The position numbers and the translations under genes are program-made. From Aurantiochytrium sp. KH105 (lineage: Eukaryota > Sar > Bigyra > Thraustochytrida > Thraustochytriidae): a DNA stretch of 64,000 nt. The notes under the pieces are model-generated. The model had not been told where the DNA came from, searched no databases, and saw only the letters and a list, made by a program, of their open reading frames with translations. Location: positions 434,001 to 498,000 of the forward strand of contig BGKB01000024.1 in NCBI GenBank assembly GCA_003116975.1. Direction: 5' to 3'. This document shows, one piece after another, positions 5,092-37,718 of the stretch; position 1 is the stretch's first letter, and each line of letters opens with the position of its first letter.

Positions 5092-6993
5092 CTAAAGTGA
5101 CTGGCTAGAAGTTTCGTTGCCGAAAAGATTTGCAGCGTACTTGCGCACATACATGTCCGCAGACTCCACCTTATCCCAATCAATTGGAAGACGCGTGAAT
5201 TCGCGCCGCGCGAGTGGAGTGTCCAGAAGGGGCGGCTCGTCCAGCACAACTTTCACAGTTGCTTCGCGACCGAGCTCCTTGACGCCTTCGGCCAAGCGAG
5301 TCGTCCATGCACGCACGGCTTGCATTGATTTAATGTAGGCTTGCTCCTTTTCGGTGCCACTCACGCGAGCAGTAAAGTCGGGCTTGCCCGCATCGGAACC
5401 GACGACGACAATATACTTGAGCAGGTCCTTGACGGAGGAAGCACCATCTGCGAGCTCTGTAGTCTCGGGGCGCCCGGTGACGTCGATTTTGAAGGCATCC
5501 GGATCGAGGGTACGGGAGGTGTCCTCAGTCGAACGCAAGAGATCACTACGCTCGCTGGGATGAAAGCGGAGGAACCTTAACGGTGCATCAATTTGCTGTG
5601 CTAGGCACTTTGTGACCTTGACCTTGCTTGCAAGATTTTGCTCGAGCAACAGCGAAGGAGACTCTTGCAGAGCAACGCCATCGTCCCAGGCAAAGGTGCC
5701 CGCAGCGAGAATAAGAGCGTCAAGCGCCGGAACACGAGACCGCATGGCTACGGTGAGTCTCGCGACCTCGGGCCACGACGAACAGTCCGCTTCAGTCGTA
5801 AAGACGGCAGGCTCGACCTTGGAAGACGTGCAGGACTTTTGCAAAGGCTCGACTGCGCGGACCAGGGCCGCAGCTGCGTCCAAGCGACCGGAGTCACGAG
5901 CTACCATCACAACAGACCATCCTCGCGTGCGCATCTCCTTTGCCCATGCAAGACCGATACCGGACGAAGCGCCCGTAACAAGAGCAACGCGCGGTTTTTG
6001 TTCATGAAAGAGCCAGCTGGCGGCCTTGTCTCGATATGAGTCAATATCAATCTTGGCGTTTCGTAGTTTTTGCTTCGTGGCAGCATTGAGTCGATTAGGC
6101 ACGTTAAGGTCGAGCGCATAGTCCCAGCTCATGGAGCCGCGATGATCCCGAATAATGTTGCACACCTGATCGACGGTGAGTACCTTCTTTCCATCGTGGC
6201 GCTCTCGCTGCGAAAAGTATTCCGTCATGGGGAGTTTGGCGGTGGGAAAGCCGAGGTGGGATGCCTTGGCCTGGGCAGCGCCCTTTTGTTTGTTGCGATC
6301 GATCAGACCACCGATAATGTACGCTTTGGTTGGATCGAATGCGGTAATTGTCTCTGTGGCGTCTGCGGACAGATAGACGGCATTTCCCGGGTTGTAGAGC
6401 TCGTGAAAGGGTTCGCTGCGTATCGAAAAGTCTCCAATTTCTGCCCATGATGCACCGCCTCCCTGACGCTCAGCAAGCTCCTTTTGCAGCTCAGACGACA
6501 TTCCTGCAAGCACAAGGCAGCTTGGTCGCCATGTCGCCCGATTTTGTCCGTATGTACCGCTGATCTGATGGTACAAGCTCCGGCGAAGGTCACGAGGCAT
6601 GTCCCCAGCAAATTCCATGTCCACGACGATGGTCGGGTTTGACTGCGCAAGCTTGGGCACAGCCTGTTTGGCATCTTTGCGGAGCGCTTGGTCGGCGCTT
6701 CGCGGATTGCTGCCCCTTGCAATAGCTTCTGCTTTGTTACGCCTGGGCGCTTGCTTGGGTTGATCGGGCGTCTTCGCCCTCTTGCGCCGTGCGATCTCCG
6801 TTCGCACGAGAGCAGCTACCTTGCGCTTGAGCGCGTTTTTGGACTCCTTGTCGGCATACTGCTCCAGAAGCGCTTTGTTTTCCTCCTCCACAAAGGCCCG
6901 CACGGCGGCGTACTCTTCGCGACGCCGCTGTTCGGCCTCGTCCACTGGCTGGTGGTGGCGGTCCTGCTCTTCGCCGCCGCCGCTACCGTCCAT
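5092..6993 (-). CDS. TRM10-type tRNA (guanine-9) methyltransferase fused to a short-chain dehydrogenase
   Basis: 633 residues in one uninterrupted frame from an ATG in an excellent context (ACCATGG). After a charged helical N-terminus (about 10-85), a TRM10 SPOUT domain spans about 120-300: VVDMEFAGDM, YGQNR, VYLSADA, the signature AYIIGGLIDRNKQKG containing the conserved catalytic-region Asp, TAKLPMTEY and VLTVDQVCNII. It is followed directly by an SDR Rossmann domain (about 335-600) with TGASSGIG at 340-347. In the SDR active-site segment the Tyr is present (about 553) but the YxxxK Lys aligns with Met (AYIKSMQAVRAW), and NNAG reads LAAG, so dehydrogenase activity may be lost. In humans TRMT10C and the SDR HSD17B10 form the methyltransferase subcomplex of mitochondrial RNase P. 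The visible N-terminus is acidic and not an obvious mitochondrial presequence. Upstream codons to 7098 are open only from a TTG and were excluded. Confidence 0.82.
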   Translation of the reverse strand: MDGSGGGEEQDRHHQPVDEAEQRRREEYAAVRAFVEEENKALLEQYADKESKNALKRKVAALVRTEIARRKRAKTPDQPKQAPRRNKAEAIARGSNPRSADQALRKDAKQAVPKLAQSNPTIVVDMEFAGDMPRDLRRSLYHQISGTYGQNRATWRPSCLVLAGMSSELQKELAERQGGGASWAEIGDFSIRSEPFHELYNPGNAVYLSADATETITAFDPTKAYIIGGLIDRNKQKGAAQAKASHLGFPTAKLPMTEYFSQRERHDGKKVLTVDQVCNIIRDHRGSMSWDYALDLNVPNRLNAATKQKLRNAKIDIDSYRDKAASWLFHEQKPRVALVTGASSGIGLAWAKEMRTRGWSVVMVARDSGRLDAAAALVRAVEPLQKSCTSSKVEPAVFTTEADCSSWPEVARLTVAMRSRVPALDALILAAGTFAWDDGVALQESPSLLLEQNLASKVKVTKCLAQQIDAPLRFLRFHPSERSDLLRSTEDTSRTLDPDAFKIDVTGRPETTELADGASSVKDLLKYIVVVGSDAGKPDFTARVSGTEKEQAYIKSMQAVRAWTTRLAEGVKELGREATVKVVLDEPPLLDTPLARREFTRLPIDWDKVESADMYVRKYAANLFGNETSSQSL

Positions 6994-7405
6994 GGTGATG
7001 CCGCCGAGGTTTCTTATGCGCGAAGCGCCTGCCCGGGCTCGGGCCGTCCGTGCGGCGAGTCCAAGCGTGGTGCAAGTACTCTCTTCGCGCGCTTGCAAGC
7101 TTTGCTCTCGAGGATTGCTGTGCCCAGCGAGCGCCGCGATTTTACGGGTTTTACCTTACTAGCCTATTATCGCCTAGCAGGTCTACTCCGTAAAGAACGC
7201 GTGCCTAAAGCCAAGATCGACCAAGACCAAGACCAAGAACGATCAGACCGGCCAAGACCAGGCAAGACCAAGGCCAAGACCAGGAGCGAGGCACAATCAG
7301 CAAAACCGGCCCGGGCACGCACGTCGAGGGCGCTGGGCTCCTTTTCAGGAAAGAATCTGACGACGTGTAAAAGAGACGGCGCGGGCTGGCAACGACGGTG
7401 GTCCA
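6994..7405. promoter_or_regulatory. Head-to-head intergenic region, TRM10-SDR / DEAH-like
   Basis: About 412 bp between divergent ATGs. It contains a purine-biased stretch at about 7215-7290 rich in repeated CCAAGA/CCAAGACC units, a short degenerate tandem repeat on the plus strand. Both promoters should lie here. No other feature seen. Confidence 0.45.
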
Positions 7406-20363: not shown

Positions 20364-23300
20364 ATGGGCTTCTTCTCTTCTGTCGACAGCCAGGTCGTCA
20401 AGGCGATCAAGAGCATCAAGACGGGCGCAAAGTATATCGTGTACGTAGCGTCGCGAGGCAAGGCGAGTCAGCGTGTCGTCGTCTCCTGCGTGGCTCTCTG
20501 ATCTCGCCAATCTGAACGACGGAAGGACTGACGGACTAACTGGCTGACCATAGCCTTGTGAACGAGAATGTTGGCGACTCGGGAGCCAAGGCGCTCGCAG
20601 GTGCGCTCGAAGGCAACAACACGCTGCTGGATCTCGAGTAAGTCTTCCCAGCAGCACGAGCATCTACCGATGACCGCCTCGACTCACGTGGATCTAACCT
20701 CTCTACTTCTCTAGTCTTGGGCGAGACAACGTCGGCGCAGTGTAAGTTGACAAACCTTATTCTCGTCCACCCGCGCTTGTAGATAGCTCACACATCAAGC
20801 CCCAACAGAATCTTTCTCGACAGCATCGGCGCCTCCGGCACCAAGGCTCTGGCTAAGGCGCTCGAGACCAATTACACCTTGAGATCGCTCAGGTACGTTC
20901 ACAACATTCTCTTGCAACGCACGGCCGCAAACAATAAAGAAGACAAGCCCAAAGACTTACCATCTCCGCTTCGTCCTGTAGTCTTCACGGCAACATGATT
21001 GGCGCATCAGGTGCAAAGGCCATGGCCAACGCCTTAAAAACCAGCACATCTCTCCAAACGCTCGAGTAAGTGGCTCCTTTTTCATTCGCTTTTTATTCTT
21101 GCACCATATACTCACCCACACGTACAATGCGAACTCTACGTAGCCTTGGGGCGACTGGACTCGGCGACGCTGACATCAAGCTCATTGCTGGCTCATTGCA
21201 GCAAAATGGAAGCCTTCACACACTCCTGTAAGTACATTTTGCAGCACTCCACATCACCACATCGTGACTGACGTAATAACTTCGCAATGCACAAACGCAG
21301 CATCCAATCAAATGCAATCACGAACAAGGGCGCGACCTCGCTCGCGCAATCGATGGAAATGAACCTGGCGCTCCAAAAGATCAAGTAAGTCATGCTGCAA
21401 TCGCACCACAAAGAAAAATTATAATAAAAAAGGGGGGCAACACAAAGTCTGACAACCGCGCAGCCTCAGCGACAACCCGATCACGGACAATGCTCTCGTT
21501 GACCAAATCATGGCTGCCGCAAAGCGCAACAAGGAAAACCCAAGCATGAAGATCGACGCGAGGTGGCTCGAGGCGGTCAATGCCAGCATTCTTCAAGGCG
21601 ATGAGCATGCCTGGGGGCGCGCCAAACTCATGATCGTGGGTCAAGGCGCCGCAGGAAAGACCTCGACCGTGCGTTCGCTTCTGGGTCTCGAACCTGTCGC
21701 AACGCACGAATCCACTGAAGTCGCTGACGTGCACCGCACGCGTGCAATCGATTGGCAAGAAATTGCCGGCTATGATGGCGAGTTCGACATGCAAGTCCGC
21801 AAGGCCGCAAGACGCCGTCTCCGGCCCGACAAACCCCGCGTCAAAAGTCTGCCCCGCCGCGCATTGGACGCCTTGCGCCGCCGCACTTCGCGCTCGTCAA
21901 CGGCGACCTCGGTACTCACCTTGTCAGATTCCGAAGACGCCCCCGATGTCACGCCTCTCGTCCCGCAAGACGAATTGGCACAGCGATTCGCGCTGACCGA
22001 GGCCGACCAGTTCGTTCTCCGCCAAGCCGCAGGCAGCGATGCCGACGCGCTTCAGTTCGATCTGAGCTTTACCATCTGGGACTATGGTGGCCAGGAAGTC
22101 TTTTACGCGCTGCATCACATCTTCCTCACCGACAAGGGGATCTACCTCGTTGTCTTTGACATGCGAGAGCTTGCGGCTCTTTCCTCGCGCCCTAGGGCTC
22201 TGGCCAACCTTCGCTTTTGGCTTAACAGCATCAAACTCCATGCGCCAGAAGCCCCCATCCTCATCGTTGGCACCCACTTTGACAAGGTTCACGCGGGCGT
22301 TTTCCAAGCCGAAGGCTTCATCCAGGAAGCCTTGCCGCTCGCGGAATCGTATCCGCAGGTCGTACGCTCGGGTCCAGGTCGTTATGTGCACGCCATTGAC
22401 AATATGTCTGCTTCGCCTGATCGCGCCGAGGCGCTGCGCACGGCCATTGCGGGCATTGCCGTCACGCAAGATTACGTCTTGCAGCAAGTTCCCCTCGCAT
22501 GGCTCAAGGTTCACGAGGATCTACTGCACATGAACGAGCCCTACATCTTCTACGATCAGGTGGTCGAAATGGCCACCGCCTATGGGCGCTCAAGACGCGA
22601 TGCGGACGCCATGCTTGCGTACTTTAACGGACTTGGCGTCGTCGTTCATCTCACAAGCTCAGAGACGTTGTCCCGGGTCGTGGTCGTCGATCCGCAGTGG
22701 CTTCTCGACAAGCTCTCATGTGTCATTGCTGACGATGTGCACGCGTCCCGCATTTCTGCGTCCGTGGAACTTCAAGAAGCCGGGATCGTCGATGCCTTTC
22801 AACGGCTGCGACAAGAGGCCATTGCGACACGTTCGCTGCTCGAATTTCTTTGGCACGGTGAGGAGGTCGACTACCTTGTGGCGTTCATGGATGCCAATCT
22901 GCTCTTGTGCAATTGGACCTTTGCTCCGGACGCTGAAGAGGACGAGTATCTCGTCTCGGGCCTCCTTTCCACGTCTATTCCTGATGTGGAAGTAGACGAC
23001 TTCGAGCCCGGCCTCTCGTGCATTTTGGACTTCTCCGTCAGCTCTTTGCCCAATGGTGTCTTTCACCGTCTCGTCGCGCAATGTATTGCGTACGGGAGCC
23101 GCCCCGAAGTCCTGGGGGACGCAGAGCCGGTCGCCCCGAAGCTGGATCGAACCAAGGCGCTGCTCGCCTTCGGCCCAAACGAGTTTCTTGTTCGCGCCGA
23201 TGGCGACGTGCTCGAGGTTTCGATTTCCCAAAACGCAGAGCGTCCAGCCATGGTCGCTTGTGTCCTCCAAGACATGGTGAGCGAGCAAGAGGAAACTGTG

Positions 23301-23936
23301 TTTCCCAACCTTCCGTGTACCCTGCTTCTCGTTAGCCCCGTGACTGGGGCTGTCGTTTCGTATGCAGACGTCGCCAGCGCTTTCATGAGCGGAGAAGACA
23401 TGGACCTCGTGGGCCGCAACGGAGAGGAGGACTCCTCTGCTAGCTTTGCGCCGTTTTTCGCCGAGGATCACGCTGATATCCCCGACTATTCTATTCCAGA
23501 CTTGTGCGATGGCGAAACAACTCATGTCTTCCTCAGCTACGAGCCCACCTTGGGAGGAGAGCTTGCCGAAAACCTCAAACTCAAGCTCGAGGACCGTGGT
23601 CTGACCGTTCTGCCAGCCGAGGGCGACGACGCAGATGCTCAGCTCGAAGCTATTTCGCATGCCCGCGCCTACATTCTCGTGCTGACCAAGGGCGTTTTTG
23701 CCCTCGGTGCAGTAAAGCAGCAGCTAAAGTGCGCGCTCGACGCCAACACACGAATTGTTGTCGTGCGCGAGGCTGATGCCGCCCGCGCATCGTACGCGCC
23801 AACGTGCGATTATATCGACACCGCACCAAGCTTCTTTCGAGATCAGTTCGCACCTTCAGAGTCTCTCGCGATGCAGCGAAAGCAGCATCGCGAGGAGGCC
23901 TTTTACGGCGAGCTCATTCGCCGGAGTATTGGGTAG
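20364..23936 (+). CDS. LRR-Roc-COR-TIR protein (ROCO family), 8 exons
   Basis: Spliced model: exons 20364-20440, 20554-20637, 20715-20741, 20809-20892, 20982-21065, 21144-21227, 21301-21384 and 21464-23936, all GT-AG and all phase 2, encoding 998 residues. Exons 2-7 encode ribonuclease-inhibitor-type LRRs (pattern NxIGxxGAKALAxAL). The large last exon has a Roc GTPase domain with P-loop GQGAAGKTS (about 234-242), WDYGGQEVFYALH and GTHFDK, followed by a COR-like region (PYIFYDQVVEMA, VVVDPQWLLDKLSCVI). The C-terminus (about 862-998) looks like a TIR domain: HVFLSY, LKLKLEDRGL, then AYILVLTKGVF and KQQLKCAL. At the place of the usual catalytic Glu of NADase TIRs there appears to be Gln. ROCO proteins are GTP-switch scaffolds, and LRR plus TIR suggests intracellular sensing, which is inference. 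The 3' end is followed within 850 bp by another plus-strand gene. Confidence 0.82.
20554..21384 (+). repeat. LRR exon array: 84-nt phase-2 exons
   Basis: Five internal exons (20554-20637, 20809-20892, 20982-21065, 21144-21227, 21301-21384) are each exactly 84 nt, or 28 codons, one LRR each. They are separated by introns of about 67-90 nt that all interrupt the codon before the LRR consensus Leu in phase 2. One 27-nt exon (20715-20741) sits between the first two. Donors are GTAAGT or GTACGT. Confidence 0.85.
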
Positions 23937-31508: not shown

Positions 31509-34500
31509 ATGGTCGTTCGCAAGCTTCTGTGCGCAGCGAACCTGCTGCATCGTCGGGGCTCCCAGGAGGAAGAGGGCTTCGAAGGCAGTAGTGCCGGAAA
31601 TCAGAGACTTCAAGTTGCCGTTCGCGAGGCTCGGACCTCGAGGGCAAGATCCGCATCATCACGCAGATCGTCGGCTTCACGTCGGTCGCGAGCTTCGTCC
31701 TCACGTCGATCCTCCAGACTTCGGAATGCAGACAGCACGCAGCATGTAGACGCTCTCGACCAGGATGATGTAGACGCTCTCGACCAAAATGATATGGATG
31801 ATCACAATGACGCGATCAATAACGAAGATGCCACTCAGGAGGAGGCTAATCTTGCAGCGACAGCAGTAGAAGAAGAAGAAGAAGAAGAAGATTTTCTGGA
31901 AGGTCTGGTGGAGGACCAAGACCAACACGAAGAGGAAGAAGAAGAAGAAGAAGAAGAAGACAATAATGTCGCGGAGGAGCTGGCAAACTTGCTCGACAGA
32001 AATGCGGCAAACGTCTCCGGAGGAACGATCGGAGACTTGGAGGCGCAGATCCGAGCCCTTGCGGAAATCCAGAGCGCGCAGGCCGGGGAAGCGAGTCGTC
32101 TCGAGGAACAATTTGACCTTCTCGAAGGGGGTATAGACCCTGAGGAGATGGACCACCTCCTCGCCCTGAGTCTGGAGTACGACATGGAACAGGCAATGAA
32201 CCAAGAAAGACTTGCGCTCGACAACGAGCAAGAGTCCGAAAACCTTGACCTTGGCCTGCGCATGTCCAACGAGCTGCAAGTATACCTTGAAAATTGGGCT
32301 AGCAGCGTAGCGACGGGCGACCTCTACACGATGGAGCGGATCTTTCACGAATTTGGTCAGCAAAATGCGCGCCTGGTGGAGGCGGAAGACGGCACGCAGT
32401 CAATTGCCGTGGAGGGCAATCTATCCTTCCAAGATCTCACCATTCCCGCGCTTCCACCTCGGGTCATCATCAGCGGAAACCTCTCCTTTCGCTCCTGCTC
32501 GCTTCCCGACGACGACACAGCGCACTGGACATGCAGCCGTCTTGCACTTGTGAATTGTCATGGGGATGCGCGCACTCTCATGGAAAACATCGAGTCTGCG
32601 CACAAATCCGCGAGCGGCGTGCTCGGCCTTCAGGGCCTTGCGCTGGACGCCATGTCCTCGAGCGAGAAGCCTCTCTCGCTTGAACTTGACAATTGCCAAG
32701 ATCTATCGCACTTGGAAACTGCAGGCGACGAAGTCGTCGTCATGAACAAACTCAAAGTCAAGAGCTGCCCCGCTTTGGTGACCGGGCCGGCAAAGCTCAA
32801 GGTACTTCAAACCATGGAACTCTCGAACCTGCCGCGCTTAGAGTCCATTGGGCGCTCCAACCTGCATCTTGGCGAGCTGACGCGTATTCATCGCTGTCCG
32901 TCTCTCAACACTCTCTGTGACGATGATCTTCTCATCGCCGGCGTGCTCAGAATTGAAGATGGGAAAATTGAGCGTATCTGCGAGGGCGCTCTCCGCTATG
33001 TGCCGGTGATCGAAAACGATGCGGCGAGTGGAGGCGAGACCTCTCCGAGCGTGACCATCGAGTGCATTGAGACGGATACACCACTTGCGGCCCGCATCGA
33101 TAGTCCTGGAATGGACGTGCATTTCGCTGGCAACAAACTCCCAGCCAAACTCTGCGAAGGTTCCATTATCGTGCGTTCCTTCTCTGTGAGCGGACCCTGG
33201 TCATTTCACCAGCGACTCATGGAGCAATATGGCACCGAAGCCGAGCAATCCGGGACCGGCCGAGGTTCGCGCAGATCGCACCGGGGCCCTAGCAGAGATG
33301 CTGGCCCTCTTGGCATCGTCGTGGACGAACTTGAATCAGAGGAGCGTTTTCACGACGAGGATTCGGGGCAATCGTCGCGAGCTTCGCAACAAGCAGCAGC
33401 GCCAACAGCGTCTCCGGAACCACTGGGGCTGCGCAACTGGCTCGACGATGTACAAGCAACGATGTCGATTCACGTGAAGCGCCTTCCCGTGAAGGATTTC
33501 CGAGGCAAACTTTCCTCGCCCTTGCTTCATTTGGAGAGCCTTCCGATGGAGGACTTTCCCGATTGGAAGTGCGAGGCGGAAAAGGGTTCGCTCCAGCTGG
33601 TGCACTGCCCGTTGCTGGAGGTGGTTTGGCCGGATGACGCACCGTCGGTTCCAATCTCCATTAATGTAGAAGACTGCGCAGCCTTGGAGAGACTTTCGGA
33701 CCAAGAAGTGCAACTGGGAAGCTTTCGCATCTCGCGAGCTCAACAGATGCAGCGGCTGGCGCGATCCATCGTGTTTACCGGACAGGAGTCAATCTCCATT
33801 GTTGATTTGCCGTCGCTGACGAGGCTTTCCGACGATCTGGCATTCTTCAAAGATGATATTACACCGCAACTGTTCTTGCGCAGTGTCGGCATCAAAAGCC
33901 TTTCGGATATCGAAGGCAGCGGGTTCACTCAGCTTCGTGTGGAATCCTGCAACGAGCTCGAGGATGCGAGTCTTCGGGGCTTGTGGCAATCTGTGGAAGT
34001 CGTGTCTTGCGACAAGGTAGCACGCGTCGAGGTTGGCCTGACAACTCGCGGTGGTTCTGGCGAGCTCACACTGAAAAAGCTCCCTCTCTTGCAAGACATC
34101 AAGCTTCGCACGGGATGTCTCAGGCTCAACATATCTGACTGTCCCGAGTTCGTTGGTGAGACGATCACAGGTGACCATGATAGCGATGCCGGAGGCGACA
34201 GTGGGAGTTATAGTGGATCGTCAATGAGAAAGCCTCTGGACATTGGTCTGCTGTCAGGTTTACGCTTTTTATCGTTGGCCGGAAGTTCGGGGCTCCGCAC
34301 GATTCCCGGTCCCTTGCCGCATACTTTACGGAACCTCGACCTCTCGAACTGCCCCAACCTGGTTCACATCCCAGACGATGTGTTCAACGCCGCCCCCGGA
34401 CGTGTCATACTCCGATTAGATCGCTGCGCATCGTTGCAAGGCATTCCTCCAATTCACGTTGCGTCGCTAAGCGCCGAGGGCTGCGTGGGCCTGCGCGAGG

Positions 34501-37500
34501 TTGGCGCTGGGTTCCGGGCGGGTTTGGTGTCTCGCGTCCGTGAAGATGGCTACATTGTGCGACTTTCTAGCGCACTGGGCGATGTCAACCTTCGCGGATG
34601 CGTGGCTTTAGAAAAGTTCGAGATGAAATTTGTTTTGGGTGATCTCGACCTTTCTGGAACTGCCGTACGGGAACTACAGGCGATGCGCGTTTTGGGAAAC
34701 CTGAGTTGCACGCACATGGGCAACTTGGAGATTGTCCACGCGGGATCTTTGGTTGGTCAGCAACAGCCAGGAATTCGGCGTTTGCCAATCAATGCGGAGG
34801 TGCGCTTTCGGTACTGCCCTCGTCTGAAGTCGATCTCCATGGAGCGCGTCTTTGGCATGCTTGACATTTCGCACTGCATGAGTCTTGAAGAGCTCGCGGG
34901 CCCGCGCATGGAGGTCGGCGTCGACTTGCCGCTGGTAACAACATGGGACAGCAAGCCACTGTTGGACTCCTCGTACGACATGCTCAAGCCTGGGATGCTG
35001 CGGCTGCGCAACTGTCCATCGCTCCGCAAGCTACCGAGCCATTTGATTTGCAGAGGCGGACTCGATGTGCGCTATTGCATGGGCTTGGAAGATATGTCAG
35101 GAGTCAAGCTGGAAGTTGGTTTTCCGGCGCTCGGGTCTCTCAGTCGCTCGCGGCAGAACGACACTACCCGCGCGGAGGCGTTTGCGTCGACAACGATTAT
35201 CGGGTGTCCGATGCTCGAGGCTCTTCCATCTCGGATGGTCACTTACGGAGACTGCATCTTTGCCTTTCTCGATGGTCTCAAGGGTCTTCCCTCGGAGGCA
35301 CTTTATTATGGCCACCTTATTGTGTCGTCGTGCCGTGGGTTCACAACTGTTCCGTCGCGTATGCGCGTTCGAGACACTTTTGCAATTCATAGCTGTGAAA
35401 CCTTCGAGGGCGTTCCGGCAGGATGGCACCATGAAAATCCTCCGGCGCTCCTGACGATTGCCGCGGCGCGTCGTCTTTTACGCAGACGCAAGAGCGTGCA
35501 GCAGGCGGAGAGACGTTTGGACCGTACGGTTCCGTCGCAATGGCGTGCCAATTCAGCTCAGCTTGAGATGTGTTTGCTCGAGCATGCGGCCGAGCAGCTG
35601 CGGCAGCGGCAACGTGCGTGGACGGCTAATTCCAAGCCGGTGGACTACCAATGGCTCCGAAGGAACACCTTTTTGGGCGGGGCGCGACGCTCGATCACTC
35701 GCCTGCGGGACCGACGGCTTGGGTCGACTTCAGGAGCCCGGTCGGCGCGAGAGGGATCGTTTTCGTCGTCGGACGATCTGGACGTGGCAGCTTCCTCCTC
35801 GATGGTCTTGCTTCCTCGCGAACAGGAGGAGTTGGCGCGGCTTGAAGAGGAGACTCTGCGCGAGGAGGCTAATACAAGCAGGAGTTATCACACAGAAGGA
35901 GACAGCGACAACGCGGGACAAGACGAAGACGGTGACGGCGGCAACGACGATGAAGTATACATGCGTGAGTTCACATCAGAATCCAACCTCTTCCGGGAGG
36001 ACGACGAGTCTAGTCAAGAACTTGCAGCGCAAGACCTCGCAGACGAGGACTACAATTCAGACGACGCTGAAGAGCTTCGCGAAGACGACGAAGTCGCCAC
36101 TACTGATCCGTGGAGCGGCAATGTTTCCAAGTGGGAGCGAACGCGGCTATTACATCGAACTGTAATTTCCTTGTGCCCTGGCGTGAAGCGTATTCCCGAA
36201 GGCGTCGAGGCGCAGTCCCTTGCGTTGGTGAATCTTACTGAGCTAGTGGATGTGAGTGAAGATCTCCGGGTCGAGGTCAATCTTTGGGTCAATTCGGCGC
36301 CGAAGCTAGAGCAATTCCCGGTGACGGTCATTGCACGCCTCGCACAGTTTGGTGCCGAGGCTCGGCTCCAAATGGCGAGGTTCAACGAGTACTGCAGCTC
36401 GAATCCGGAAGCGGTCGTGCGACGGCCGTCGAACTGGCTTGCACGCGTGCGAAGACGCACGGGTGTCCCTCCAGAGCGACCGATCACATCGCGTGCTACG
36501 ATGATGCTGAACGCGACGGGCATTGACGCGGAGGAGCTTCGTTCGATGCGCGAAGTGTCTCTGCAGGATGCCGGCGATGCGCTGGAGTGGGTCACGTGGA
36601 TGGCTGACGATCTCTTTCAAGGTGACCTCGGGACTTCAGATGCACTGTTTGATCGCGAGGAGGAGGAAGAGGAGGATTTAGCGGAGGATGACTGGGATGG
36701 GGGCGACGCAGATGCGCTCAACGGCAATGGCAACGGGAGCCTGGGCGGCGAGTTCGAGGACTTTCGCACGGCCGTGTTGTTTTGGAAGGCTGCTGCGACG
36801 GGTCGCCCGCCGCGTCTGATGCGCATGCTCTTCGAGTCGGAAGACGACTATGAGGTGCTTTCGTGTCTTGACCGCGTCGTGGACGCGGCGTATCGGGGCA
36901 GCGTGCTGACATTTCTGGACATGCTGCGCAGATCGCGTGAGTACCGCAACCCTACGACACGACGCGGGCTTGCCGAGCGTGTCGTGGAGGTCCTGCATAA
37001 TGTTTCGCAGGACGAGGAGGCTCGCGATGAGCTTTCTGCCCGCATGGCGGATGCGATTGACGCTTGCGAGGACAAACCGATTTGGGCGTTAAATCAGATG
37101 GAGGTGGTGGGGCTGATTGCACATGCACGGGGAGATCGCGAGGCGTTGCGAGCGCTGGGGAGGCGCCTGGTGAATCTTGACATTGTGCACGAGGCGGCAC
37201 GGAAACGCATTGAGCAACGAGGCGGTTTTCTTGATGTCGACGATGTTTGCGTGTATTTGCAGTACGAGATCCAGTTCCGACTTCCGCTGAACCTCCCTGT
37301 ATCATCACATTTCATGGTGTATGGCAGCACGATTCCCGGCGAAGAGGTCATTCGCGTGTCGCGTGCAGCCTTGAATTTGTCTGACGAAGACTTTGAGGCA
37401 TGGCTTTCTCGATGGCCCGAGTGGACGCGTCAGGATCGTTTTGAGTATGCTCGTTCTTTACAGTGGGAAGACCTGCCACGGAATGGGAAGCGTGTGAGCC

Positions 37501-37718
37501 TTGGTCGCTCGACCCTGCTTGGTGATGATATTCCAGATCCTGTTCGGTTGAGTGGGGCGACCTACTCGATGGAGGAGTTGCTCACGCATTGGGTGCGCAC
37601 AGGCATGGACTTTAGCAACGTTCGGCACTCGGTGCAAGAGATGGCCAAAGGTTTGTCGCGATGTGACATTGTGTTTGAGGATGACGAAGATGTGGTCGTT
37701 CCAGAGGGCAAAAGATAA
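31509..37718 (+). CDS. Giant LRR protein with C-terminal NEL-type (IpaH/SspH-like) E3 ubiquitin ligase domain
   Basis: 2,069 residues, single exon, from the ATG at 31509. After a basic Ser/Arg-rich N-terminus and an acidic Glu-rich stretch (about 115-155) there is a ubiquitin-interacting-motif-like helix (EEMDHLLALSLEYD, about 212-225). Residues about 319-1300 form a long irregular LRR solenoid with units of the type GxLxLxxCxxLxxLP. An acidic, disordered insertion (about 1430-1530) and another short LRR stretch (about 1550-1605) follow. The C-terminus (about 1750-2060) matches the NEL domain of bacterial type III effectors in order: ADAIDACEDKPIWALNQM with the catalytic-type Cys at 1853 in a CxD motif, RRLVNLDIVHEAARKRI, LDVDDVCVYLQYEIQFRLPL and FEAWLSRWPEW. 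NEL ligases transfer ubiquitin through that Cys. Codon usage and flanks look like the neighbours, so this is a resident eukaryotic gene and not contamination (inference). Confidence 0.8.
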   Translation: MVVRKLLCAANLLHRRGSQEEEGFEGSSAGNQRLQVAVREARTSRARSASSRRSSASRRSRASSSRRSSRLRNADSTQHVDALDQDDVDALDQNDMDDHNDAINNEDATQEEANLAATAVEEEEEEEDFLEGLVEDQDQHEEEEEEEEEEDNNVAEELANLLDRNAANVSGGTIGDLEAQIRALAEIQSAQAGEASRLEEQFDLLEGGIDPEEMDHLLALSLEYDMEQAMNQERLALDNEQESENLDLGLRMSNELQVYLENWASSVATGDLYTMERIFHEFGQQNARLVEAEDGTQSIAVEGNLSFQDLTIPALPPRVIISGNLSFRSCSLPDDDTAHWTCSRLALVNCHGDARTLMENIESAHKSASGVLGLQGLALDAMSSSEKPLSLELDNCQDLSHLETAGDEVVVMNKLKVKSCPALVTGPAKLKVLQTMELSNLPRLESIGRSNLHLGELTRIHRCPSLNTLCDDDLLIAGVLRIEDGKIERICEGALRYVPVIENDAASGGETSPSVTIECIETDTPLAARIDSPGMDVHFAGNKLPAKLCEGSIIVRSFSVSGPWSFHQRLMEQYGTEAEQSGTGRGSRRSHRGPSRDAGPLGIVVDELESEERFHDEDSGQSSRASQQAAAPTASPEPLGLRNWLDDVQATMSIHVKRLPVKDFRGKLSSPLLHLESLPMEDFPDWKCEAEKGSLQLVHCPLLEVVWPDDAPSVPISINVEDCAALERLSDQEVQLGSFRISRAQQMQRLARSIVFTGQESISIVDLPSLTRLSDDLAFFKDDITPQLFLRSVGIKSLSDIEGSGFTQLRVESCNELEDASLRGLWQSVEVVSCDKVARVEVGLTTRGGSGELTLKKLPLLQDIKLRTGCLRLNISDCPEFVGETITGDHDSDAGGDSGSYSGSSMRKPLDIGLLSGLRFLSLAGSSGLRTIPGPLPHTLRNLDLSNCPNLVHIPDDVFNAAPGRVILRLDRCASLQGIPPIHVASLSAEGCVGLREVGAGFRAGLVSRVREDGYIVRLSSALGDVNLRGCVALEKFEMKFVLGDLDLSGTAVRELQAMRVLGNLSCTHMGNLEIVHAGSLVGQQQPGIRRLPINAEVRFRYCPRLKSISMERVFGMLDISHCMSLEELAGPRMEVGVDLPLVTTWDSKPLLDSSYDMLKPGMLRLRNCPSLRKLPSHLICRGGLDVRYCMGLEDMSGVKLEVGFPALGSLSRSRQNDTTRAEAFASTTIIGCPMLEALPSRMVTYGDCIFAFLDGLKGLPSEALYYGHLIVSSCRGFTTVPSRMRVRDTFAIHSCETFEGVPAGWHHENPPALLTIAAARRLLRRRKSVQQAERRLDRTVPSQWRANSAQLEMCLLEHAAEQLRQRQRAWTANSKPVDYQWLRRNTFLGGARRSITRLRDRRLGSTSGARSAREGSFSSSDDLDVAASSSMVLLPREQEELARLEEETLREEANTSRSYHTEGDSDNAGQDEDGDGGNDDEVYMREFTSESNLFREDDESSQELAAQDLADEDYNSDDAEELREDDEVATTDPWSGNVSKWERTRLLHRTVISLCPGVKRIPEGVEAQSLALVNLTELVDVSEDLRVEVNLWVNSAPKLEQFPVTVIARLAQFGAEARLQMARFNEYCSSNPEAVVRRPSNWLARVRRRTGVPPERPITSRATMMLNATGIDAEELRSMREVSLQDAGDALEWVTWMADDLFQGDLGTSDALFDREEEEEEDLAEDDWDGGDADALNGNGNGSLGGEFEDFRTAVLFWKAAATGRPPRLMRMLFESEDDYEVLSCLDRVVDAAYRGSVLTFLDMLRRSREYRNPTTRRGLAERVVEVLHNVSQDEEARDELSARMADAIDACEDKPIWALNQMEVVGLIAHARGDREALRALGRRLVNLDIVHEAARKRIEQRGGFLDVDDVCVYLQYEIQFRLPLNLPVSSHFMVYGSTIPGEEVIRVSRAALNLSDEDFEAWLSRWPEWTRQDRFEYARSLQWEDLPRNGKRVSLGRSTLLGDDIPDPVRLSGATYSMEELLTHWVRTGMDFSNVRHSVQEMAKGLSRCDIVFEDDEDVVVPEGKR

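Follow-up and report, generated by a model that had tools for sequence, protein, structure and literature searches.

A family of predicted NEL-type ubiquitin ligases resident in the genome of a thraustochytrid

Overall, our analysis suggests that the NEL class of ubiquitin ligases, which reviews treat as bacterial E3 enzymes (PMC9320238, PMC11354881; these and all other articles are cited here from the passages available), also leads a resident life in eukaryotes. Its starting point is a stretch of 64,000 nucleotides from Aurantiochytrium sp. KH105 ('the window', i.e. bases 434001-498000 of contig BGKB01000024.1, C24 for short), which carries a gene for a protein of 2069 amino acids (aa) with a NEL domain near its C-terminus. 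This gene very probably resides in the nucleus and belongs to a eukaryotic family of NELs, with a predicted role as a thioester ligase. The family comprises 16 distinct genes, which most likely encode resident E3 ligases that act through a thioester and differ in their recognition modules.

The NEL domain and its gene family

The window gene is a single frame of 2069 codons (31509..37718 on the + strand, stop codon included), which is open from a predicted ATG start to its end without splicing, in keeping with the intronless gene of the initial annotation, a reading of the DNA letters alone. That annotation had also placed a NEL-type domain near the C-terminus and had proposed to check it against the Pfam profile. 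In hmmscan, this profile (PF14496) matches residues 1799-1974 (36903..37430, +), i.e. profile positions 29-214 of 223, with an E-value of 1.4e-24 and 87.2 bits against a cut-off of 24, and the last 330 residues taken alone reach 93.4 bits. The assignment would have been refuted by a profile score below the threshold, which is not what is seen, and the match of the predicted protein is not a product of chance. Among solved structures (phmmer against the PDB), the IpaH chain 3ckd aligns with residues 1799-1991 at 2.7e-10, with SspH1 and SspH2 being weaker than the IpaH chains (2.7e-06 and 6.6e-06, respectively). A profile built from the 16 paralogues described below finds IpaH2.5 at 1.2e-28 over positions 30-279 of 362, a range that takes in the final tryptophan-rich helix.

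The phmmer alignment sets Cys1853-Glu-Asp1855 onto the Cys-Glu-Asp of IpaH, which puts the CxD motif exactly where it had been proposed, with Cys1853 (codon 37065..37067, +) as the predicted catalytic nucleophile and Asp1855 (37071..37073, +) as the aspartate of the motif. Asp1911 (37239..37241, +) is aligned with a second acidic residue in the active site of IpaH; by manual count along the same alignment it is the counterpart of Asp397 of IpaH9.8, the role of which in the active site is described in PMC9320238.

Across the 76.0-Mb assembly with its 367 contigs, the NEL profile finds 32 matches, all of them above the cut-off and none with an internal stop (counts from profile searches of the assembly are lower bounds throughout). 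These matches represent 16 distinct genes, each present in two copies whose aligned C-terminal parts are 95.7-100% identical, and when scanned singly, all 16 distinct proteins contain the domain. The unreported eukaryotic branch of the NEL family that had been envisaged at the outset was therefore not only correct but even understated, the window gene being one of 16. The frames range from approximately 570 to more than 2800 aa, and the NEL domains of different genes share 33-74% identity (median 47%, 16 genes). The cysteine and the aspartate of CxD are both kept in 32 of 32 rows, and the second acidic position is occupied by Asp in 30 and by Glu in two of them. When all 16 copy pairs are pooled, the ratio of non-synonymous to synonymous differences (pN/pS) is 0.18 for whole frames and 0.13 for the NEL domain plus C-terminus; judged by this comparison of copies, the 16 two-copy genes are under purifying selection. 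The partner of the window gene on contig C13 (locus L030) also encodes 2069 aa, with a non-synonymous divergence (dN) of 0.0157 and a synonymous divergence (dS) of 0.0971. For comparison, the same genome yields 44 HECT matches, one of them with internal stops, and 11 U-box matches. Two of the NEL genes stand head to head, with less than 1 kb between their frames, and do so on either haplotype contig (L033 981-7101 on C31; L035 416-6656 on C93); wherever else a contig carries more than one of the 32 matches, these are separated by more than 100 kb.

When GTDB genomes were scanned with patterns drawn from the paralogue alignment, 11 relatives were obtained, all 11 from Pseudomonas and 28-32% identical. 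With the paralogue profile, 9 of 398 genomes of the Pseudomonas phylum gave a match (at most a few candidates were scored per genome), as did 2 of 297 genomes of one order, both already among the matches of the phylum scan. Seven pattern stretches in viral contigs included no relative, phages gave no match, and 156 plasmid records matched, 130 of them from Shigella, with identities of 27.6-29.3% among the matches listed (15 of 156). In Pseudomonas, where large NEL proteins occur (L040-L054), the two genomes searched whole gave four and five NEL matches.

In an unrooted maximum-likelihood tree, for which, as for the alignments A1 and A3, only one of the two copies of each gene was taken (16 of 32 rows), the 16 eukaryotic rows were set beside 28 of the 31 bacterial loci, without the fragments L074, L075 and L076, giving 41 different rows in all, with L040, L054 and L062 being identical and L052 equalling L071. 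All eukaryotic rows fall on one side of a branch with a support of 100/99 and a length of 1.78, i.e. a long stem. On this alignment, the 16 eukaryotic NELs form a single clade, separate from all bacterial NELs that were sampled. The bacterial sample is narrow (Pseudomonadota), and the tree, being unrooted, is compatible with either direction of transfer.

A conserved C-terminal extension

Behind the NEL domain, the proteins of the eukaryotic clade continue with a conserved stretch of approximately 85 residues (37434..37697, +), in which Trp2028 and Gly2032 are invariant in 16 of 16 genes and which is most worn in L017. Used as a single-sequence query against the genome (E up to 1), this extension produced 26 matches, all 26 in NEL genes and together representing 13 of the 16 pairs. 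In the same search it was not found in the pairs C97/C200, C27/C32 and C4/C55, one copy of each of which is nonetheless present in the extension alignments. Solved IpaH chains match the paralogue profile no further than position 280 of 362, and bacterial NEL regions no further than position 287, and a 20-residue match of two Pseudomonas proteins to positions 301-321 lies far from their own NEL domain.

Proposed mechanism and competing readings

Bacterial NELs form a cysteine thioester, work with E2 ubiquitin-conjugating enzymes of the UbcH5 class, generate K48 chains and are autoinhibited by their leucine-rich repeat (LRR) part until a substrate releases them (PMC9320238). Because the active-site residues of IpaH are kept, the likeliest reading for the eukaryotic genes as well is that they encode functional thioester ligases in which the recognition module can be exchanged. 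A charged E2 would load ubiquitin onto Cys1853 of the NEL domain, and Asp1855 together with Asp1911 would support its transfer to a substrate lysine. The substrate would be selected by the N-terminal LRR-like part, or by SPRY, SAM and other modules in paralogues, and by analogy with IpaH/SspH2 this N-terminal part would probably restrain the catalytic domain until the substrate binds. Such a ligase could work alongside the HECT ligases and target either intruders or proteins of the cell itself.

An important question is whether these genes belong to the eukaryote at all, since proteins of this type are reviewed as bacterial (PMC9320238) and a contaminant, or the effector gene of an endosymbiont, might have been assembled into eukaryotic contigs. 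The surroundings of the window gene make this extremely improbable. A Pfam match at 0.001 was obtained for 11 of the 20 frames scanned in its neighbourhood, and these include Nop14, spread over two consecutive frames (profile positions 6-547 and 548-862) that are most simply separated by an intron, EMP70, an N2,N2-dimethylguanosine tRNA methyltransferase, three Myb stretches, a FYVE plus Ysc84 protein, a DEAH-helicase-type C-terminus and a Roc-COR protein. Together with an assembly size of 76.0 Mb, neighbours such as Nop14, EMP70, FYVE-Ysc84 and Myb also uphold the eukaryotic host assumed in the initial annotation. In GC content and codon use, the NEL gene resembles its neighbours overall, its codon-use distance of 0.108 lying inside the range of reference frames (0.070-0.134). 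A second copy exists on the syntenic contig C13, which shares 93.5% identity with the region of the window gene along 8.5 kb and 89.2% along 1 kb more on the upstream side, and on both contigs a HECT gene follows at a nearly equal spacing of approximately 49 kb downstream; the C24 and C13 copies are most simply two haplotypes. Moreover, SPRY and SAM domains are fused to NEL in paralogues, and no close bacterial relative was found, the best profile match among the 398 genomes being 9.5e-25 and the 11 Pseudomonas loci sharing no more than 28-32% identity. We reject contamination on the strength of these neighbouring genes, the composition, the presence of second copies and the domain fusions.

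If the genes are resident, they might still encode a catalytically dead NEL fold that is retained as a scaffold or ubiquitin binder. The activity of the family is a prediction from sequence, and in L021 the Lys-Pro that follows CxD has been lost, with Glu standing in for the second Asp. Yet, with CxD being complete in every row, an acidic residue in the second position throughout and the coding sequence constrained between gene copies, we consider this quite improbable. Several observations do weigh against a family of resident, working LRR-NEL ligases. In the weakest pair (C367/C222), dN over the NEL domain plus C-terminus is 0.0186 versus a dS of 0.0381. The GC content at third codon positions of the window gene (0.616) is slightly below the 0.634-0.783 of seven reference frames, and its 176-codon NEL part alone, a small sample, has the largest codon-use distance (0.250). 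The LRR evidence, too, is sub-threshold in the window protein, where LRR_EndoS reaches 23.1 bits at residues 380-466 (cut-off 27.9), and an LRR-type Pfam match with an E-value of 0.001 or better occurs in only 7 of the 16 NEL genes and is above the curated cut-off in only three of them (L011, L024 and L026), so that 'LRR-NEL' is an unfit label for the family as a whole.

For the window protein itself, an irregular LRR-like region, presumably the substrate-binding part, can be delimited at residues ~291-1290 (32379..35378, +; borders approximate). Residues 904-987 are matched by chain 7crb, which we take to be a plant NLR receptor, with an E-value of 1.5e-05 (phmmer against the PDB), and a loose LRR pattern occurs nine times in residues 291-1650 (shuffles: mean 2.7, maximum 8, n = 300). 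The long LRR solenoid that had been described here is plausible, but irregular and weaker than claimed. Other genes of the family carry different modules over the respective cut-offs, i.e. a SPRY domain in L011 and L024 and a SAM domain in L016, the protein of which was scanned as the 2824 aa within the fetched stretch rather than as the whole frame. A candidate ubiquitin-interacting motif near residue 215 of the window protein was rejected, as it departs from the strict pattern; one other gene pair conforms to this pattern.

The resident ligases could, finally, be more than NEL enzymes. By eye, the C-terminal extension reads L-x-G-x4-D-P-V ... W-S-x2-D-L-L-x-H-W, and at residues ~2003-2051 of the window protein (37515..37661, +) the stretch LxGxxxxDPVxL...WSLxDLLxHW looks U-box-like. 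On this reading, the family would be dual ligases, in which a divergent U-box brings the charged E2 and ubiquitin is then handed to the NEL cysteine, in a relay resembling that of RBR ligases. Using hhalign, the extension aligns with six U-boxes of the same genome, with LxGxxxxDPV...W in register, at a probability of 34.5; under other settings, the probability is only 19.3 (score 22.4, with 60 column shuffles reaching 13.9 at most), and with two plant U-boxes added it is 47.6, with a score of 26.3 that none of 300 column shuffles reaches (maximum 17.7) and that is stable in leave-one-out (24.9-27.1 in 16 runs, plant U-boxes included). Moreover, the score against U-boxes rises only in those NEL windows that reach the extension (19.3-24.3 versus 8.5-16.0 in windows that end short of it). 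On the other hand, the Pfam U-box (PF04564) is found in none of the 16 NEL proteins, the profile brings up five PDB chains at E up to 10, none of them a U-box, a proline invariant in the six U-boxes of the genome is without counterpart in the extension, and the extension turned up only together with NEL, in contrast to what a shuffled module would show. It also has to be considered that the pattern was noticed by eye first and tested afterwards. Thus, the extension faintly resembles a U-box, which is a lead and not a result, and a dual ligase appears possible but rather unlikely. A still wider reading, in which protists hold an old and diversified NEL family, the IpaH/SspH effectors descend from a captured eukaryotic ligase, and the protist NEL and U-box-like module form a relay ligase, seems improbable. 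The coherence and the internal diversity of the eukaryotic clade (33-74% identity among 16 genes) would suit an old resident family, and the unrooted tree is compatible with such a direction.

Genomic setting, comparison with known systems and significance

Some further features of the genome deserve mention. The Roc-COR protein is encoded at 21510-23936 (+) of the window, approximately 7.6 kb from the NEL gene, and has a TIR-like, sub-threshold C-terminus (24.9 bits, cut-off 28), i.e. it is possibly a Roco-TIR signalling protein. An odd pairing is seen at 5092-7098 (-), where a tRNA (guanine-1) methyltransferase-type domain is followed by a short-chain dehydrogenase domain in one frame. In the assembly, a polyunsaturated fatty acid (PUFA) synthase model of the PfaA type matches with 930 bits over profile positions 6-1035 of 2582, below its whole-protein cut-off of 1010; 11 of 14 control genomes, too, give matches to this model that fall short of the cut-off. 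A PfaA-type PUFA synthase presumably fits a thraustochytrid. PMC11951076 agrees with this link.

The IpaH, SspH and SlrP effectors of enterobacteria share with the eukaryotic proteins the NEL domain from end to end, CxD, the second acidic residue and and the C-terminal tryptophan helix; the LRR part that precedes NEL in these effectors has a possible, weakly supported counterpart in the window protein. They differ in sequence, with 27.6-29.3% identity among the plasmid matches listed (15 of 156), and in that the eukaryotic genes are resident in the genome, have frames of approximately 570 to more than 2800 aa, possess the extra C-terminal part and include the SPRY and SAM fusions. IpaH/SspH effectors are bacterial and type III-secreted, whereas the window gene has eukaryotic neighbours in a eukaryote-sized 76-Mb assembly. 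The large NEL proteins of Pseudomonas likewise carry NEL near the C-terminus, 10 of the 11 frames being 1562-1707 aa long and L042 with its 330-aa frame being the exception, but they belong to a separate clade, and their NEL-region matches end before most of the extension. HECT ligases operate by the same cysteine-thioester mechanism as NEL (PMC9320238), but with a different domain, and the 16 NEL proteins scanned gave no HECT match.

In the open-licence literature searched, as far as the matches listed and the passages available go, a described eukaryotic NEL family was not found. The sole NEL-related claim for a eukaryote among them is that of PMC7145615 for NLR genes of the green alga Klebsormidium; in contrast to the genes described here, it concerns a SUPERFAMILY assignment (ODAL, LRR motifs) that is called homologous to NEL, with no catalytic motif named in the passage available. 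PMC7029713 lists PF14496 among the models applied to Giardia, and PMC6557245 concerns bacterial ligases. Eukaryotic NEL entries may already be present in protein databases.

A resident eukaryotic family, with 32 NEL beside 44 HECT matches in one genome, provides a setting in which the action of NEL ligases on native substrates can be studied. It also bears on how NEL enzymes are restrained where no pathogen is involved, and on the origin or destination of the bacterial effectors. With their SPRY, SAM and LRR fusions, these genes make substrate choice by NEL ligases directly testable.

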